This document shows positions 22,162-30,473 of a DNA stretch of 64,000 bases, piece by piece. Made by a program: the position numbers and the translations under genes. The DNA lies in NCBI RefSeq assembly GCF_014931715.1, contig NZ_CP063164.1:992001-1056000 (forward strand), in the 5' to 3' direction. The notes below the pieces were generated by a model. It made no database searches, was not told the DNA's origin, and was given only the letters and a program-made list of their open reading frames with translations. How positions within the stretch are numbered: position 1 is the stretch's first letter; the number at the start of each line of letters is the position of its first letter. This DNA comes from Sulfurovum indicum. Its GTDB lineage: Bacteria > Campylobacterota > Campylobacteria > Campylobacterales > Sulfurovaceae.

Positions 22162-22464
22162 TTACAGTTTGCCTATATAGTCCGCAACGCTCTTGATCTC
22201 ATTATCGTTGTATTTTTTGATAAACCGCTTTTTCACGCTTTTTGCAAGTGGATGCCCCTTCTTTTTACCGGAAGCATAGTCGTGTGTCAGAGCAATAAGC
22301 TTTTTGGCCGGCATACCATGTAAAGGGTGTGAGACTCCCAAGGCTTTTTTTTCGCCTTTGCTGCCATGACATGCAGCACACTCTTTTTTGTAAATACTTT
22401 TTCCTGAGCCTGCTGTCAGCAATGTTGCAGTCACAAGAGGTATAATAATGATCCATTTTTTCAT
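22162..22464 (-). CDS. Periplasmic class I c-type cytochrome (c553-like)
   Basis: A 100-residue protein: signal peptide MKKWIIIIPLVTATLLTAGS, then the heme site ECAACH near residue 31. PLHGMPAKKL offers a possible Met ligand. The C-terminal helix IKSVADYIGKL is typical of mono-heme c553. It should carry electrons in the periplasm. It is isolated; the sensor kinase gene ends just upstream on the same strand. Confidence 0.85.
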   Translation of the reverse strand: MKKWIIIIPLVTATLLTAGSGKSIYKKECAACHGSKGEKKALGVSHPLHGMPAKKLIALTHDYASGKKKGHPLAKSVKKRFIKKYNDNEIKSVADYIGKL

Positions 22465-22531: not shown

Positions 22532-23695
22532 CTATTTGTGAGATTGCTTTGGAAATATAAGTGTAAAAGTACTTCCTTTTGAGAAAACGGAGTCAACTTC
22601 TATTTTGATGCCATACTCTCTGCATATCTGACTCACAATATCAAGCCCCAGACCAAATCCTCCGGTTTGTGTCGAGGTCGACTCAAAACGCTTGAAGATC
22701 TTTTTCTTTTCATCTTCTTTAATACCTATGCCGTTATCCTGGATACTAAGCTGTTCCGAGCACAGGTCGATACGTATGTATCCTCCTTGTCTTGAAAACT
22801 TGATGGCGTTGGAGAGAAGATTATCAATCAGAAGAACTACCTTTCTTCTATCCATAAGGATCTCTTTTGGTATCATATGACACTCAATCTCTATTTTTTT
22901 GAACTGTATCATGGTTTCCATATAGCGGATACGTTCCTCAATGATATCTTTCAGGTTTATTTTCGTGTCTTCATAATTGATATGTGTGTGAAATGAGATA
23001 AAGGTGAGATCGTTGTAGAGCTGGGAGAGGGTTTTTGTAGCGATCTCGATACGGTCGAGTGCACGCAGTTGTTTTGGTGAAAGATTCTCTTTGGGCATAT
23101 GTTCCTGGCTCATTAAAATGGTACTGATGGGTGTATTCATTTCATGTGCTGTATCTTTGATGAACTGTTTGAGAGTCTGTATGGCCTGGCGTAGAGGATA
23201 GAGCATGATCTTGGAGAGTAGAAGTGCAATAAATAACAGGAAAACAAAACCAAAAAGGGCAACGATCCATATCTGTTCCAGTATTTGGTCAAGTTTCTCT
23301 ATGGGTAACGTTTTTTTGATAACGATATATTTCACATTAAGATACTCTTTGATGATACTCTCTACAAGATAATAGTCCAGTCCTTTATGGTAGAAAAGCT
23401 GTGAAAAATCGATTTTGTCATCGAAGGTTGAAGCAATTAATGCCTTATTCTTGTCATAAAGGGCAATACCGTACCCCTCTTCATAAAAAGTAAACTCTTC
23501 ACTTTCAAGATTATGGTAATACTCCAGTTTACTGTTGATGTCTCGTGCTTTATAGCGCATCTGCATATGTAAATTTTCGACCAGTTTATATTTCTCGGAG
23601 TGGTAGTAGAGGTATCCTATCACACTTCCAAGGGCTCCGATCGAGCCCAGATAGATCACCATAAAAAAGATGAGGGTTTTTGTACTTGCTTTCAT
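22532..23695 (-). CDS. Sensor histidine kinase
   Basis: A 387-residue membrane kinase. Two transmembrane helices (about 8-28 and 142-163) flank a periplasmic domain of about 110 residues. The H-box reads FIKDTAHEMNTPISTI with the phospho-acceptor His near 186. The ATPase domain has the N-box LLIDNLLSNAIKFS and the G-boxes DNGIGIKED and GGFGLGLDIV. It follows the response regulator with a 2-bp gap, so they form one unit. The signal is unknown; the divergent small secreted proteins are candidate targets. Confidence 0.9.
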   Translation of the reverse strand: MKASTKTLIFFMVIYLGSIGALGSVIGYLYYHSEKYKLVENLHMQMRYKARDINSKLEYYHNLESEEFTFYEEGYGIALYDKNKALIASTFDDKIDFSQLFYHKGLDYYLVESIIKEYLNVKYIVIKKTLPIEKLDQILEQIWIVALFGFVFLLFIALLLSKIMLYPLRQAIQTLKQFIKDTAHEMNTPISTILMSQEHMPKENLSPKQLRALDRIEIATKTLSQLYNDLTFISFHTHINYEDTKINLKDIIEERIRYMETMIQFKKIEIECHMIPKEILMDRRKVVLLIDNLLSNAIKFSRQGGYIRIDLCSEQLSIQDNGIGIKEDEKKKIFKRFESTSTQTGGFGLGLDIVSQICREYGIKIEVDSVFSKGSTFTLIFPKQSHK

Positions 23696-23697
23696 TC

Positions 23698-24369
23698 TCA
23701 GGAGACTTTGGGTATGAACCGGTATCCGGTACCTCTTATATTTTGTATCATATCGGTACTGAGATATTTTCGTAAGTTCTTGATATGTGCTCTAAGTGCA
23801 TCAGACGAGCCGCTTTCATGGTACTCCCACATTGTCCGGTAAAGATCTTCGAACGTTACGATCTTGTTGGGATGCCGAAGAAAGTACTTTAGTGCCTTTA
23901 ACTCTTTGGGAGGGAGGGAGATCTTTTCCTCTCCACGGATGAGCAGTTCATTCTCTATGTCAAAAAAAAGCTCTTTGTCTATCTGGATACGCGATGAACG
24001 TTGTTGTGCAAATGAGCGTTTTTGAATGTTTCTGATACGCAGTAGAAGTTCTGTCAGTTCAAACGGTTTTTTCATATAGTCGTCTGCACCGCTTTCAAAG
24101 CCCTTTTTGACATCTTCGATATCATTAAGAGAGGTAATATAGATTGCGGGTGTCTTGTCACCGTTCTTGCGCATCATCTGTAAAAGTTCAAATCCTTTGA
24201 GAATCGGTACATTGACATCAAGGATATAGAGGTCATAATGTTTTTCATAGCTCAGTGAAAGTGCCTCTTCTCCGTCATAGACAAGATCCACATCAAAGTC
24301 ATTGTCTTGAAGATATTCGGATATGATATCAGCTAATCCGATGTCATCTTCCAGTAGCAAAATATTCAT
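23698..24369 (-). CDS. OmpR-family response regulator
   Basis: A 223-residue regulator. The receiver domain has acidic residues LLLEDD, phospho-acceptor Asp in LYILDVNVP (near 52), Thr/Ser in YITS and Lys in MKKPFE. The C-terminal winged helix ends NIRGTGYRFIPKV. It is the first gene of the two-component unit and is divergent from the small secreted protein at 24516; the 146-bp gap carries the element duplicated at 24874. Confidence 0.93.
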   Translation of the reverse strand: MNILLLEDDIGLADIISEYLQDNDFDVDLVYDGEEALSLSYEKHYDLYILDVNVPILKGFELLQMMRKNGDKTPAIYITSLNDIEDVKKGFESGADDYMKKPFELTELLLRIRNIQKRSFAQQRSSRIQIDKELFFDIENELLIRGEEKISLPPKELKALKYFLRHPNKIVTFEDLYRTMWEYHESGSSDALRAHIKNLRKYLSTDMIQNIRGTGYRFIPKVS

Positions 24370-24515: not shown

Positions 24516-24851
24516 ATGAAATATAAATGTATACTGGTTTCCCTTTGTATATTCGGCACTACCTCTCTTTATGCACACGAGAGTGGATTGGGAGATGTAC
24601 TTCGGGAACTGGGGAAAGAAAAAATACCTGCTGAATTTTCGGAAAAGAAAAGTGTATCTAAAAAAAAGAGACGTTTTGTTTTTAGAGACGACTATGAGGC
24701 CAATGGTATAGGAGAGAAAGACAAAAACAGATCAGAAAGTTATAATTATACCAATAGATCTAGGTTTAAATTTAAATTCAAGGACGGTTCTTCACACAAC
24801 AACTTCTCAGGGGGCTATCGAGGAAGCGGTGGCGGAAGAGGCAGAAGATGA
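24516..24851 (+). CDS. Small secreted basic protein with Gly/Arg-rich tail, unknown
   Basis: A 111-residue protein with a signal peptide (MKYKCILVSLCIFGTTSLYA, cleavage after YAHA-like site), a lysine-rich middle (SEKKSVSKKKRRFVFRDDYE), a stretch rich in Asn/Tyr/Arg and Phe/Lys (YTNRSRFKFKFKDGSS), and the tail FSGGYRGSGGGRGRR. No family is recognised. The next gene has the same plan, so the pair may be diverged duplicates. Probably periplasmic or surface located and intrinsically disordered. Confidence 0.7.
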   Translation: MKYKCILVSLCIFGTTSLYAHESGLGDVLRELGKEKIPAEFSEKKSVSKKKRRFVFRDDYEANGIGEKDKNRSESYNYTNRSRFKFKFKDGSSHNNFSGGYRGSGGGRGRR

Positions 24852-24873
24852 TTTTCCCCTTCTCTTCATAGAT

Positions 24874-24902
24874 ACTTCACACTCTTTTCATATACTTCTA
24901 CT
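24874..24902 (+). promoter_or_regulatory. Upstream element copy B
   Basis: This is the second copy of the 29-bp element described at 24452, 37 bp before the ATG of the second small secreted gene. Unlike copy A it is not followed by a TATAAT. Confidence 0.45.
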
Positions 24903-24939
24903 GCAGCAAACAGCAATCATACTAAAAAAAGGATCAAGC

Positions 24940-25224
24940 ATGAAAAAAATAGTTTTGGCGGCAGGAGCCGTGGCACTTTTTTCCGTTACCACTCTGAGTG
25001 CAGATGAAAACAGATATCAGACAAGAGTTCAGCAGTCTGCAGAATATAAAGATGATGTTCAGTATAAATATCGATATCAACCGGATGAACCTCATCAGTA
25101 TAAAGGTGAATATCAGCAAAAAAACCAGTATCGAAAACAATACAGAAATAATATGAATGACATAAGCAGCGATATGGGCAGCATGGGAAGTATGGGCGGC
25201 AGCAGAGGTGGTGGCAGACACTAA
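24940..25224 (+). CDS. Small secreted protein with Gly/Arg-rich tail, second member
   Basis: A 94-residue protein with a signal peptide (MKKIVLAAGAVALFSVTTLS, cleavage after SA). The mature part is dominated by Tyr/Gln/Lys repeats (YKYRYQPDEPHQYKGEYQQK) and ends with a Met/Ser/Gly stretch, MGSMGSMGGSRGGGRH. AAAGGATC precedes the ATG. No family is recognised. The design (signal peptide, disordered Tyr-rich body, GGxRGGGR end) parallels the gene 88 bp upstream. Confidence 0.7.
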   Translation: MKKIVLAAGAVALFSVTTLSADENRYQTRVQQSAEYKDDVQYKYRYQPDEPHQYKGEYQQKNQYRKQYRNNMNDISSDMGSMGSMGGSRGGGRH

Positions 25225-25359: not shown

Positions 25360-26130
25360 CTAATAGGAATTGAGCTTGTTGTAGAGTTCTATTTTTGAAT
25401 TTACCTGATATTTTCTGAAAATACTTTTCATATGGGTTTTAACGGTATTGATCGAGAGGTTCAGTATCTCCGCAATTTCAGTATAGGATTTGCCGGACAA
25501 TACTTTACGTACAATACGTTTCTCCTGTGCTGTAAGCAGTTTCAACTCTTCATCGATTCGTCTGCATTTGGTATAGAAGATACCATAATGTTCGTCATGA
25601 AGAGGTCTGGTCAGTGTTTCAAAAAGCTCTTTTACTTCTTTTAGTTTTGGTATCTTGATTTCTACTTTGTTTTGGAACATAAAACAAATAAATGCTATCT
25701 CTGTTTTATTGTCAAAATCGTAGATAGGCATGGTAATGATATCTTTTAATTGAGCTTTTTTTGAAAGCTCAATTGCATTTTTTTTGGAGATCAATCCTTT
25801 AAAGAGTTCATAAAGACTACTGGTATGGGCATATTTCATGTTTGATGTAAAATGGTTCTTGCAGTTTTTTATAAAATCATTCCAGGAAAAACTATTTTTG
25901 TCAAACACATACTCTTTCAGTAAATGCTTGTATCTGTGGTGTGCTTCTATAACATAGCCGATCTTGACATTGTTCTGTTCCCTCAAAAATAGAGAAATGA
26001 TATCAGCCTGTGTTCTTTTAAGATAAAAATCCCTGTCTTTATGCAGCATGGCATTGATATCTCTTCCCTGGATAATGCAGGACTGAAACTCGATAATCTT
26101 ACTTTGTATTGTATTCTCTTTTTCTTCCAT
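25360..26130 (-). CDS. LuxR-type transcription regulator
   Basis: A 256-residue protein. The last 60 residues are a clear LuxR/FixJ helix-turn-helix (LTAQEKRIVRKVLSGKSYTE, then IAEILNLSINTVKTHMKSIF). The first 190 residues contain no domain I recognise and no receiver Asp, so it may bind a ligand directly. It is divergent from the lipoprotein gene at 26290, and the space between holds an 18-bp dyad, which makes control of that gene likely. Confidence 0.88.
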   Translation of the reverse strand: MEEKENTIQSKIIEFQSCIIQGRDINAMLHKDRDFYLKRTQADIISLFLREQNNVKIGYVIEAHHRYKHLLKEYVFDKNSFSWNDFIKNCKNHFTSNMKYAHTSSLYELFKGLISKKNAIELSKKAQLKDIITMPIYDFDNKTEIAFICFMFQNKVEIKIPKLKEVKELFETLTRPLHDEHYGIFYTKCRRIDEELKLLTAQEKRIVRKVLSGKSYTEIAEILNLSINTVKTHMKSIFRKYQVNSKIELYNKLNSY

Positions 26131-26189
26131 ATGTTTATACCTTATTAAAATTATATCATTATTTATTAATTTAAAGATAAGTTTACTTT

Positions 26190-26234
26190 ATCACCCGAAT
26201 GGGTGATGTATTGTTTTTTCAGTTTAGTTATACT
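26190..26234 (+). promoter_or_regulatory. 18-bp dyad and -10 box before the lipoprotein gene
   Basis: ATCACCCGAATGGGTGAT (26190-26207) is two perfect 7-bp arms around GAAT. A -10-like TATACT lies at 26229-26234. With a start 7 bp further on (26241) the dyad centre falls at -42.5, the classical activator position of LuxR-type proteins. No -35 hexamer is seen, consistent with an activated promoter. Confidence 0.6.
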
Positions 26235-26289
26235 GATTTAATGTGAAAAATATTTACATTAATTCTTAAGTAAAGGGAGGAGATTAGGT

Positions 26290-29016
26290 ATGAAAAGAGT
26301 CAGTTTTCTTATAAGTATACTAGTAACATCGTTGTTGTTATTGGTCAATTGCGGCGGAGGCGGAGGAGGGGATTATGATGATAATAATCCACCGATCATC
26401 TCCTATACTGAGCCTACTGTCATCCTGCAGGGGAGTAACTTTGATCCTTTGGATGGTGTGACCGCATGGGATGATATAGATGGAGATATCACAGATGAGA
26501 TCGTGATAGTCTCAAATGATGTCAATACGAGTGCTGTAGGGATCTATACAGTTATATATAGAGTAGCGGATACAGCAGGAAATATAACGACGGCCACTAG
26601 ATCGGTAAGTGTTATAGTCCTGAACCCGGATGATCTTCCTGTTGACTCCGGCAGTGCAATAGATGGAACAGCTCTTGGTTGTGATCCTGCAAGTGTTGAT
26701 GCGAACGGAAGTACGGATGCAAATGAGTTTGCAGCAGATAAACCGTTCAAGAAAAATGTCTCTTCATCTACTGATGATGTAGCAAGTCGAAAACTTCAGA
26801 CATCACACAATACTATTAAACGACTTGATATGGTAATGTATGAAACGAATGCTGCAGGAGAAACGAATACTTCCAGCAGGTACCATCCGATACTGGCGAC
26901 CTATTTGGAACATGTGGAGGGAAGTGACTATGAGATGGGTGACGGAAGTGCAGATATAGGTGATCCTGATAATGTAGATAAAGTTGTTGCATCAATCTCA
27001 AGAGACAATGGTAAAACATGGAAGGATTATAATGTTTCCAACACTACAGGCAAGAGCAGTATAGAGGTAGTCTGGAATGGACAAACCATTGCATACCCTG
27101 GAGATGCCCAAAAGCCGACAATGGCGATAAGTGGTCAGTATGTACTTGTTGCATGGAATGACAAATACTGTCCGAGTGGAAATCCTTTCAATCTTGATGG
27201 AAACAGTACAGATGGATACCCGGATGATGCCTTTGCTGTAAATGGTCCTCAGAACTATATAGATTATGAAGGTGTGGTGGCACCAAACGGGAAAAGAGTC
27301 TACCAAGTGCCATTCTCCTGTGTCTGGACTGCAAGAGGGATTATCGATGAAACAAGCGGAGAGATAAGGTGGCATGCTCCAATGCAGCTTACTTCGGGGA
27401 CAAGAGATTCAAATAAAATATGGGTTGCAGGTTCTCCTGCAGGATTTGCACTTGCATGGCAGGAAGATGTTCTTGGGCTGAAGCAGGGTGAGGGTGCCGG
27501 TCCCGGCGATGGATGGAGTGGTGCAACAACCAACCGGGGTACAGATATCTGGTACACCTCTATCAAAATGGCAGACTTTGCTGCAGAAGATGGACTGGAA
27601 GACGGTAAACCAAAATCTGCGTATAACTTCCATTATCCGGTACGTATTACAGACAATGAGCAGTGTCAGGACACAGACAAAAAGATCTACTGCAAATACT
27701 TCTGTGATACCTATGGTACCGTAACATCTGAAAAAGGTAATCTCAGTGGAGATACAGTAACACGTTGTTTGACATATGATATTGATATGCTGACAAATAC
27801 CGTATCGGTTCTTGACGGTGATACCGGTGCATCAAGATCGGCGTTGAAAATACTGAAAACGAATGCGGGAGGCGAGTATGTTGTCGTATTTGGGTATGAA
27901 GAGACAAAAGCGCTTACAATAAAGATCTCAGGTGAAGGTGAACAGGATCAGGGCGAAATACCTACTGATATAGAAGCAGAAGGGAAGTCTGTCTATTTTG
28001 AGAGTTTTGATTTTAATGCAATTGATGCTTTTGATGAGAGCAATATCTCTACGATCGCCACAACACCTATGCCTATTGTAAGTGCAGGCAACATCATTAA
28101 TACCAAGGCACCTGCGCAAGATGATCCGGAGCATATGATCTATGAGAATGCACGTCGTCTTGTTATCGGGACACAGATCGATTCCTGTGATGCAGCGGGT
28201 GAAGGAAATATCACTTTTGCCATTCTGTATAAACAGTCATTTGAAGTCCAGGGTGCATCCTCTGATATGTTCGTTCGTACAAACCGCGGATTTACCTATG
28301 ATACATTTGAAGCGCTTAACGGGCTTGAGGTAACCAATGTCAGTGCACAGAATTATCGGGTAACGGAACTTCCGACTGACTATGTTGTCGACTGGAGTCC
28401 GGAGAACCTTGATGACAATACCTATGAGAATGGTGAAGAGAATACATTTTCTCCTCGTATATTCCTTCGTGGAGGCAATATCTATGTAGGATTTGAGTAT
28501 ACACCGAATGACACAAAGACAAGTCAGGGGAATTTTCCGAGCAATTTCCATACACATCGTTTCATCGATGGTGTTTGGCAGGGGCCTCAGAATATCACAC
28601 AGGTAACAGAGGGGCATGTTACGACTGTGGATGCAAGATTCTTTACCACACCGAAGGGCAGCTATGATGCTACCGGTCTGGAATCAGACAAGAGTAATCC
28701 GAATGTTCTTTTCGTCACATGGGGAACACTTGTAAACGGTATAGAAGCAGATCTGTTCTTTAGACGTTCGGCAGACAATGGAGAGAGCTGGGAAGAGGAA
28801 CAAAATCTCAGCAGCATTTCCGGTACTGTAGTTCAAGAAAAAGAAGTAGAAAGTTTTGCCTCACCAGATGGTAAAACGATCTATAATGTCTGGTTACAGC
28901 AGTCAGAGAATGAACCGATGGGACCTGCATCCGAGAATGACGGAGATATATGGCTTGGACTTGATACATGGTTTGGGCGTGTGGACTATAATGTATCAAT
29001 TCTACCGGCACCCTAG
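26290..29016 (+). CDS. Large surface lipoprotein with Ig-like and Asp-box motifs
   Basis: A 908-residue exported protein. The signal peptide ends LLLLVNC followed by six glycines, a lipobox-like site with an unusual Asn at -1. Residues 34-112 resemble a DUF5011/HYR Ig-like domain (DGVTAWDDIDGDITDEIVIV). The body has at least two sialidase-type Asp boxes, SRDNGKTW (about 237) and SADNGESW (about 826), which mark beta-propeller blades. Overall it recalls the choice-of-anchor O proteins, but I cannot confirm that. AGGGAGGAG precedes the ATG. It sits between a LuxR regulator and an outer-membrane cytochrome-porin and is probably co-expressed with the latter. Confidence 0.75.
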   Translation: MKRVSFLISILVTSLLLLVNCGGGGGGDYDDNNPPIISYTEPTVILQGSNFDPLDGVTAWDDIDGDITDEIVIVSNDVNTSAVGIYTVIYRVADTAGNITTATRSVSVIVLNPDDLPVDSGSAIDGTALGCDPASVDANGSTDANEFAADKPFKKNVSSSTDDVASRKLQTSHNTIKRLDMVMYETNAAGETNTSSRYHPILATYLEHVEGSDYEMGDGSADIGDPDNVDKVVASISRDNGKTWKDYNVSNTTGKSSIEVVWNGQTIAYPGDAQKPTMAISGQYVLVAWNDKYCPSGNPFNLDGNSTDGYPDDAFAVNGPQNYIDYEGVVAPNGKRVYQVPFSCVWTARGIIDETSGEIRWHAPMQLTSGTRDSNKIWVAGSPAGFALAWQEDVLGLKQGEGAGPGDGWSGATTNRGTDIWYTSIKMADFAAEDGLEDGKPKSAYNFHYPVRITDNEQCQDTDKKIYCKYFCDTYGTVTSEKGNLSGDTVTRCLTYDIDMLTNTVSVLDGDTGASRSALKILKTNAGGEYVVVFGYEETKALTIKISGEGEQDQGEIPTDIEAEGKSVYFESFDFNAIDAFDESNISTIATTPMPIVSAGNIINTKAPAQDDPEHMIYENARRLVIGTQIDSCDAAGEGNITFAILYKQSFEVQGASSDMFVRTNRGFTYDTFEALNGLEVTNVSAQNYRVTELPTDYVVDWSPENLDDNTYENGEENTFSPRIFLRGGNIYVGFEYTPNDTKTSQGNFPSNFHTHRFIDGVWQGPQNITQVTEGHVTTVDARFFTTPKGSYDATGLESDKSNPNVLFVTWGTLVNGIEADLFFRRSADNGESWEEEQNLSSISGTVVQEKEVESFASPDGKTIYNVWLQQSENEPMGPASENDGDIWLGLDTWFGRVDYNVSILPAP

Positions 29017-29034
29017 TCGTAGAGCCCCATCAGT

Positions 29035-29058
29035 CAAAGTGGGATTTTTCTCACTTTG
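29035..29058. terminator. Hairpin between the lipoprotein and cytochrome-porin genes
   Basis: CAAAGTG and CACTTTG form a perfect 7-bp stem around a T-rich loop. On the plus strand the tail is A-rich rather than U-rich, so it may process or attenuate the transcript rather than stop it. Confidence 0.4.
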
Positions 29059-29147
29059 CAAAAAAAGCTTGTGTTAGATAAGTGTGGGCACAGAGAGGGG
29101 TATTGTATGTCGGTCGATACTATGTAAAACAGAGGGAGGAAAAAATA

Positions 29148-30473
29148 GTGAGAATGAAAAAAAACAGTTATTATATCGCTGCTGCAGGAGTGTTTGCAGT
29201 ATTTGGGTTAACGGAGAGTGCAGAAGCACTGCCAATGTTTACGGCACAGACAGGTATGGAGTGTGCAGGATGCCATACACAGCATATGCCAAGACTCAAC
29301 AAGGTTGGCAGAAAGTTTGCCGCATCCGGAATGACAATGAGCCGTCAGGTTTCAGAGATGAAAAAAACTTCCGATATGGATATCCATCCGTCACTGCTGA
29401 TCAAATCAAAATATACAAAAACATGGGATAAGCCAGATGGTCATGGTTTTATTAAGGAAGGCGATACAAATGACGGTGAACTCTCTCCGGTACGTATGAC
29501 TACATTTTATACCGGAGGACAGCTCACCAGTAATATTGGCGGAATATTGAATCTGGGCTGGAGAAAAGAAGAGGGCAGGTCTATTTCAGGGAAAGTTGTC
29601 TATGCGCAAGAGCTTGAAGAGGGATACTGGGGGGCAGCATTCTACTCTACAGCCACGCTTGGGCCATTTTCGGGAATGGAGTTTTATAATACAGGTCTAT
29701 ACAAACCTTTACGGACTTTTGATAACAAGGTCTACAGTAATGCAAACCAGTCAACAAAGATCGGTACAAAAGCAGCTACAGGTATCCAGGCTTATTATGA
29801 CAGAGACAACTTTCTAACAGATGGAGACCACTTTTTTATAACAGCAGGTATTTATACCCCCGGACAAGACAATAGAGACCTGAAAATGAGTGATAATATA
29901 TTGCCGTTTGCAAGAGTTGCATATGAATATCCTATAGGTGACTACAATGTCATGATAGGTGCTTTTATCATATCCGGAGGAGAAACTGTCTCTCCAACTG
30001 AACCGCTCAGTATCAAAAGAGAAACATTTGGTATAGATATGCAGGTAGAAGGTGAAATAGCAGAAAGAGAGGTTGTTCTGACGATAACAAATATTTTCAA
30101 GAATAAAGTGGAGTTCACAGGTATCGGTATGCAATTGACAGATGATACTGAAGATATAGAAAATGATGCATTTTCAGCAGAAGGCTCTATAAGTGTAACA
30201 CCTTCCATTGTTGCAAAAGTGGGATATATGTACTTCAATGATCGTTTTGACTACAGGTATAATGGCATAGGCGGTGGTACCGGGGAAGGGACCGGAGATC
30301 TGAAACCGGATGTAAAAGATCTTGATTATGCCATTAATATAGGTATTGATTATGGTTTTACTATTACGAATACACCGATGAAGATCGCAGTAGAGTATGC
30401 ATGGATGAATCCACGACTTGACAGAGTAGAAGAGTATCAGAGTTTTATGGTAACAATTACCTTGCCTTTATAG
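29148..30473 (+). CDS. Outer-membrane beta-barrel with one N-terminal c-type heme site
   Basis: The protein has about 441 residues from the GTG at 29148, 9 bp after GGGAGG; the ATG at 29154 is the alternative. The signal peptide is KKNSYYIAAAGVFAVFGLTE. A single heme motif, ECAGCHTQHMPRLN, follows at about residue 37. The remainder alternates in short amphipathic strands typical of a porin barrel (VRMTTFYTGGQLTSNIGGIL, VYAQELEEGYWGAAFYSTAT). Barrel proteins carrying their own heme suggest electron or ligand traffic across the outer membrane. The open frame upstream to 29082 has no ribosome site. Confidence 0.75.
   Translation: MRMKKNSYYIAAAGVFAVFGLTESAEALPMFTAQTGMECAGCHTQHMPRLNKVGRKFAASGMTMSRQVSEMKKTSDMDIHPSLLIKSKYTKTWDKPDGHGFIKEGDTNDGELSPVRMTTFYTGGQLTSNIGGILNLGWRKEEGRSISGKVVYAQELEEGYWGAAFYSTATLGPFSGMEFYNTGLYKPLRTFDNKVYSNANQSTKIGTKAATGIQAYYDRDNFLTDGDHFFITAGIYTPGQDNRDLKMSDNILPFARVAYEYPIGDYNVMIGAFIISGGETVSPTEPLSIKRETFGIDMQVEGEIAEREVVLTITNIFKNKVEFTGIGMQLTDDTEDIENDAFSAEGSISVTPSIVAKVGYMYFNDRFDYRYNGIGGGTGEGTGDLKPDVKDLDYAINIGIDYGFTITNTPMKIAVEYAWMNPRLDRVEEYQSFMVTITLPL

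Follow-up and report, generated by a model that had tools for sequence, protein, structure and literature searches.

Cyc2, represented in Acidithiobacillus ferrooxidans, in Mariprofundus ferrooxydans PV-1 and, as Cyt572, in Leptospirillum, is a fused monohaem cytochrome-porin and the leading marker that has been proposed for iron oxidation by microbes. Those Cyc2 proteins that have been characterised oxidise iron, and the Cyc2 consensus comprises AXPXFAR[Q/K][T/Y], described as unique to Cyc2, followed by CXXCH and PXL, with a length of at least 365 aa set by the FeGenie rule (PMC8406198). Bona fide Cyc2 has already been reported in Campylobacterota (PMC12442345). A further system of relevance here, JDVT-CTERM/MrtJ sorting, consists of a glutamic-type intramembrane protease and a single target protein, and the published description is of a two-gene unit found in beta- and gammaproteobacteria (PMC11980579).

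Here we compare these systems with a locus of Sulfurovum indicum. The window, meaning the whole 64,000-nucleotide stretch that was analysed, is part of a 2.21-Mb Sulfurovum genome in a single contig. Sulfurovum is a known sulfur and hydrogen oxidiser of the vent type.

Results

Organisation of the locus

An initial annotation of this DNA had named a LuxR-type regulator, a dyad, a lipoprotein and a porin-like barrel protein, and all four elements were present at the places it gave. The features of the locus are listed below.

22162..22464, minus strand: small secreted c-type cytochrome, 100 aa (PF00034)
22532-23695, minus strand: histidine kinase of a two-component pair (domain match, synteny)
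23698-24369, minus strand: response regulator of the two-component pair (domain match, synteny)
25360..26130, minus strand: REG, LuxR/GerE-type regulator, 256 aa (PF00196)
26190..26207, plus strand: putative operator dyad (dyad and spacing conserved in genomes with REG only)
26229..26234, plus strand: TATACT, the -10 hexamer in the promoter of LIPO (promoter alignment)
26290..29016, plus strand: LIPO, choice-of-anchor O lipoprotein, 908 aa (NF040591, PF16403, PF02012)
29154..30473, plus strand: BARREL, predicted Cyc2-like monohaem cytochrome-porin, 439 aa (hhalign, hmmsearch)

The two-component pair is a conserved neighbour of the barrel locus by synteny and, together with the shared d30574-crcB-plsC flanks, identifies the window locus as the syntenic site of that in the surveyed genomes G089, G090, G097, G137 and G138. 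Almost every barrel locus has a relative of the small cytochrome c beside the barrel gene or REG. At 24516-25224 on the plus strand lie the genes of two small secreted proteins whose tails are rich in Gly and Arg (GSGGGRGRR and GGSRGGGRH); the pair is conserved in many barrel loci, divergent from the response regulator, and the first protein (24516-24851) gave no family match. Within the 137-bp gap between LIPO and BARREL there is merely a weak terminator-like hairpin (29026-29043), and thus the two genes are likely to be co-transcribed.

Relationship of BARREL to Cyc2

The listed open reading frame of BARREL extends over 463 aa from a GTG at 29082. An ATG at 29154, placed behind GGAGG, gives 439 aa, agrees with the relatives and is the likely start. 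The CxxCH that had been claimed for this porin-like protein is there, as a single ECAGCH, and one CxxCH flanked by conserved residues was found in 16/16 barrel members examined. No Pfam, NCBIfam or PDB family covers the protein (best PDB profile E 0.033). Its N-terminus, ALPMFTAQTGMECAGCHTQHMPRLNKVGRKF, resembles the Cyc2 cytochrome domain.

Cyc2-like sequences were sought by a motif scan of the phylum, which yielded L069 (ATPAFARQTQMDCMSCHFQSIPKL). This protein, in which AXPXFARQT is complete, matches the Sulfurovum barrel family over almost the whole length (hmmsearch 1e-62) and aligns with BARREL of the window at a BLAST value of 5e-41. The barrel family was also matched to L099 (AIPSFARQTGLSCSACHTVFPEL), from another family of the same order, and L076 (AVPSFARQTGQPCATCHTAFPEL), a Methylocystis plasmid protein, both termed canonical Cyc2 by the published motif and not by named characterised records. 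The hhalign match (probability 98.3, E 2e-14, ~123 columns) spans the cytochrome domain and the first barrel segment; past that segment the porin part of BARREL gave no significant match to canonical Cyc2, save through L069. By this profile match and by way of L069, BARREL shares ancestry with Cyc2. On the Methylocystis plasmid (L076 3854-7624) the canonical Cyc2-like gene is annotated 'hypothetical protein' and is followed by three c-type cytochrome genes.

Set against the published consensus, BARREL has its single CxxCH near the N-terminus behind a signal peptide, relatives starting with a signal-peptide-like hydrophobic stretch, and at 439 aa it is longer than the FeGenie minimum. The motif before CxxCH departs from that of Cyc2: ALPMFTAQT keeps A, P, F, Q and T with AR changed, and FAR, which reads F-[T/A/S/G]-[A/T/Q/M] in all Sulfurovum members, is lost in every one. 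PXL is likewise displaced, the P of CHTQHMPRL being the fifth residue after H as against the fourth in L099 and L076; the element is one residue late throughout the Sulfurovum clade, with its P replaced by E in one subclade. Judged by sequence, BARREL is Cyc2-like and not Cyc2, a divergent relative of the Cyc2 cytochrome-porins.

The last residue of most sister barrel proteins is F, as is typical for barrels of the outer membrane. An AlphaFold2 model of BARREL built from three sequences had a pLDDT of 29.9, too low to support the 16 strands of a Cyc2 porin, and a strand count from amphipathicity, with 28 peaks, was unusable. Attachment of haem and a barrel topology are predicted for the protein. 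G097 encodes two barrel paralogues (L050 7704-10864), 70% and 47% identical to BARREL of the window and separated by a small cytochrome c gene.

LIPO and the choice of anchor

The 908-residue product divergent from REG was confirmed. Its call as a lipoprotein stands with a minor correction: the N-terminus is a hydrophobic stretch ending LLVNC-GGGGGG, and the lipobox of LIPO itself, L-V-N-C, is non-canonical, but relatives have LVGC. LIPO is a clear member of the choice-of-anchor O family (choice_O; NF040591 choice_anch_O, 637.3 bits against a cut-off of 125). We found no literature on a choice-of-anchor O protein, nor a described function for the family. The Ig-like motif noted initially corresponds to PF16403 (53 bits), a domain that lies in front, while the Asp-boxes of the propeller-type domain are recognisable in SRDNGKTW and SADNGESW, which fit SxDxGx[TS]W, but give weak Pfam matches (PF02012 2.5e-4, PF13088 3.6e-3). 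A PDB profile search with LIPO returned nothing meaningful, and plasmid matches to LIPO cover its Ig domain only. Lacking CxxCH, LIPO is unlikely to be a cytochrome. An MtrCAB/MtoAB-type complex was dropped as a candidate, since there is no multihaem protein in the set and LIPO is without CxxCH.

The family name signifies that its members are anchored at the surface in different ways, as is the case here. The relatives in G071 and G095, together with a second G095 copy, are lipoproteins; JDVT-CTERM tails are found on the relatives in G079, G128 and G089. LIPO of the window ends DYNVSILPAP and does not have the GGGC-TM-RR tail of JDVT-CTERM (NF033191). In G132 (L061 6927-7370) the choice_O gene is cut to its 3' part of 147 aa, with the operator gone and REG and the barrel kept; this remnant reflects either natural decay or an assembly gap.

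Co-distribution and exchange of partners

The initial annotation had proposed a search for co-occurrence and held that separate distribution of the genes in other genomes would count against a linked set. We surveyed 175 Sulfurovaceae genomes, several of them fragmented MAGs, and found the barrel in 16, one of which (G075) gave a weak match. Full-length REG was present in 11 genomes, choice_O in 7 (one as a fragment) and choice-of-anchor F (choice_F) in 10, and all 11, 7 and 10 are among the 16 barrel genomes. No such separation was observed: outside the barrel genomes there was no instance of REG, choice_O or choice_F. Hypergeometric values for co-distribution with the barrel are 5e-14 for REG and 1.3e-8 for choice_O, or 6.5e-10 and 4.8e-6 within an approximate genus count, and they overstate significance because the genomes are related and not independent.

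In the window, G071 and G095, the gene immediately before the barrel gene encodes a choice_O lipoprotein. Sister species have a JDVT-CTERM choice_F gene (NF033657, NF033191) immediately after the barrel gene in 10 loci, and usually then MrtJ (NF033192), next in 8. Loci without choice_F are those of the window, G071, G095, G132 (where the 3' part of choice_O alone is present) and two short contigs. LIPO is an exchangeable part of the module and not its core: choice_F stands alongside the barrel in 10 of the 16 barrel genomes. Choice_F was not found in the genome of the window. At its 1804.7 kb region (L078 8697-11758) that genome has a separate JDVT-CTERM-like pair, in which MrtJ adjoins an 870-aa protein ending MMSLFYPLRRKYFK. 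Viral contigs held no relatives, and the one plasmid relative of choice_F (Acinetobacter, n=1) is without a barrel neighbour.

REG and its putative operator

The LuxR-type assignment of REG was upheld by a match to PF00196 GerE (50.8 bits, residues 198-250). TIGR03020 EpsA is the closest NCBIfam model, at 52 bits against a cut-off of 170; with an N-terminal half that differs as well, REG was rejected as an EpsA member. PDB profile matches are confined to the HTH, which alone is confident in a model of pLDDT 48.4. C18, C149 and C189 are invariant in an alignment of 10 relatives, a trio that would fit a possible redox or metal sensor.

The dyad reads ATCACCC-GAAT-GGGTGAT, with perfect 7-bp arms. 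Allowing at most 3 mismatches, 0.06 matches are expected in the window and 2 were seen, 1 of them exact. TATACT at 26229-26234 lies 21 bp beyond the dyad and puts the presumed transcription start at 26241; counted from there the dyad is centred at -42.5, bearing out the distance of 42.5 bp given initially. Class II activator sites have this position, as does the lux box. The LIPO promoter has no -35 match, a scan for sigma-70-like sites giving none here, and the dyad would appear to stand in place of the -35 box.

A search of the loci and the window (348,505 bp) with the operator pattern ATnACnC-N4/5-GGTGAT found it solely in promoters of the module genes: before choice_O in the window, G071, G095, G079 and G128; before the barrel gene in G122, G086 and G088; before choice_F in G090 and G100; and before an invasin/Ig lipoprotein gene in G128. 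The dyad is 21-22 bp from a -10-like hexamer in 11/11 aligned sites. The same site is present at the contig ends of G079 C124 and C202, pointing to an adjacent, divergent arrangement of REG and the choice_O-JDVT gene there.

Genome-wide, a promoter site with the dyad was found in 10 of 11 genomes with REG and 0 of 16 without (Fisher 1.3e-6); the value overstates independence, the genomes being related, and the motif was first defined on REG loci. Hits within coding sequence in G139 and in G122 contig C68 were left out of this count; the second dyad-like site of the window genome (1956021) is also inside coding sequence. The REG genome without the dyad is G132, where the start of the lipoprotein gene is lost. 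Three dyad sites are not beside REG (G090, G100 and G128 C63) and precede choice_F or choice_O genes; these are the most independent support for the tie between regulator and dyad. Taken together, the pattern of occurrence supports a dyad that behaves like the operator of REG.

Discussion

The identities of the genes, the homology to Cyc2, the linkage and co-distribution, the exchange of partners and the correlation between regulator and dyad can all be read from the sequences. We propose a model which, we judge, has about an even chance of being right: the whole is an activator-controlled outer-membrane electron-transfer module, with a divergent Cyc2-type BARREL and with LIPO as its surface partner. 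REG would bind the dyad at -42.5 as a class II activator, replacing the -35 element, and would switch on, presumably as activator and not as repressor, LIPO and, as second gene, BARREL. One c-type haem would sit in an N-terminal plug on the porin of BARREL and take electrons from a small soluble donor entering the pore, most likely Fe(II). Assuming this inward direction of flow, the electrons would pass to the small periplasmic cytochrome encoded nearby (22162..22464), a candidate acceptor. LIPO would be the surface-anchored partner, probably binding or positioning an extracellular substrate or making physical contact with BARREL; choice_F with JDVT-CTERM would fill this role in sister species, both proteins presumably acting outside the barrel.

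The initial annotation had suggested a surface system for electron exchange or for binding an extracellular substrate. The linked set agrees with this, electron exchange being the more likely role, although LIPO is not core. Indeed, the relationship to Cyc2 suggests that the cells may exchange electrons with something outside. It is unlikely, though conceivable, that the haem-bearing porin works in surface display or in the capture of a substrate and not in respiration; its haem would then be a redox sensor or gate, and LIPO or choice_F would bind an extracellular ligand such as a polymer, mineral or neighbouring cell. The partner found most constantly is large and anchored at the surface, the operator also precedes the invasin/Ig-type lipoprotein gene in G128, and the FAR of the Cyc2 motif is lost in Sulfurovum members, all of which would suit such a role; however, the CxxCH conserved in 16/16 members and the small cytochrome c nearby point to electron transfer, and the homology to Cyc2 covers the cytochrome domain. 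The drift of FARQT to F(T/A)(A/T)QT, the extra residue before PXL and a host group known for sulfur oxidation might instead indicate Cyc2-like uptake from a donor other than Fe(II), for example Mn(II), reduced sulfur species or an electrode/shuttle. We consider this quite improbable, given that the characterised Cyc2 representatives oxidise iron (PMC8406198).

The role of the dyad in our model must be weighed against an RNA hairpin, acting as a terminator or mRNA structure and not as a protein-binding site. A terminator scan does flag 26189-26208, followed by TATTGTTTTT. Nevertheless, the arms in sister species are imperfect (ATCACAC..GGTGAT, ATAACCC..GGGTGAT), so that pairing is broken with the spacing kept, and the dyad does not occur as a promoter site unless REG is there too. 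Moreover, lying upstream of the -10 hexamer at constant spacing, it is not transcribed from that promoter. We regard a hairpin as very hard to believe.

It is tempting to speculate that a sulfur-oxidising Sulfurovum lineage gains energy by Cyc2-type electron uptake with an obligatory but interchangeable surface partner (choice_O or choice_F) and its own LuxR-type switch, a tentative reading that we hold to be possible. If true, it would provide the first function for the orphan choice_O and choice_F families and the JDVT-CTERM system, and the first extracellular accessory protein for Cyc2. A diverged Cyc2 relative in a genus of sulfur oxidisers bears on the reach of Cyc2 beyond known iron oxidisers, and the function-less choice-of-anchor O, choice-of-anchor F and JDVT-CTERM/MrtJ families are brought into one physiological setting. 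Since the regulator, the operator, a candidate periplasmic cytochrome and the surface partner are all defined, function is open to ordinary genetics.

The initial annotation knew of no characterised example of such a set. This has to be revised, as the barrel is a divergent relative of Cyc2, and LIPO and its replacement fall in named NCBIfam families linked elsewhere to JDVT-CTERM/MrtJ sorting. Like Cyc2, BARREL has an N-terminal CxxCH in an AxPxF..QT context, then an outer-membrane porin-type region, in ~430 aa; unlike Cyc2, it has FAR replaced, PXL shifted by one residue and a diverged porin part, and its gene is linked to those of a LuxR regulator and of surface-anchored proteins. REG shares its C-terminal GerE HTH with the XrtB/PEP-CTERM-associated EpsA regulators, which are similarly tied to a C-terminal protein-sorting setting. 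In this locus the choice-of-anchor O family is coupled to a Cyc2-like porin and has a dedicated regulator, and the JDVT-CTERM/MrtJ system, described from beta- and gammaproteobacteria as a pair of genes, occurs here in Campylobacterota with a Cyc2-like barrel, a lipoprotein replacing it at the window locus.
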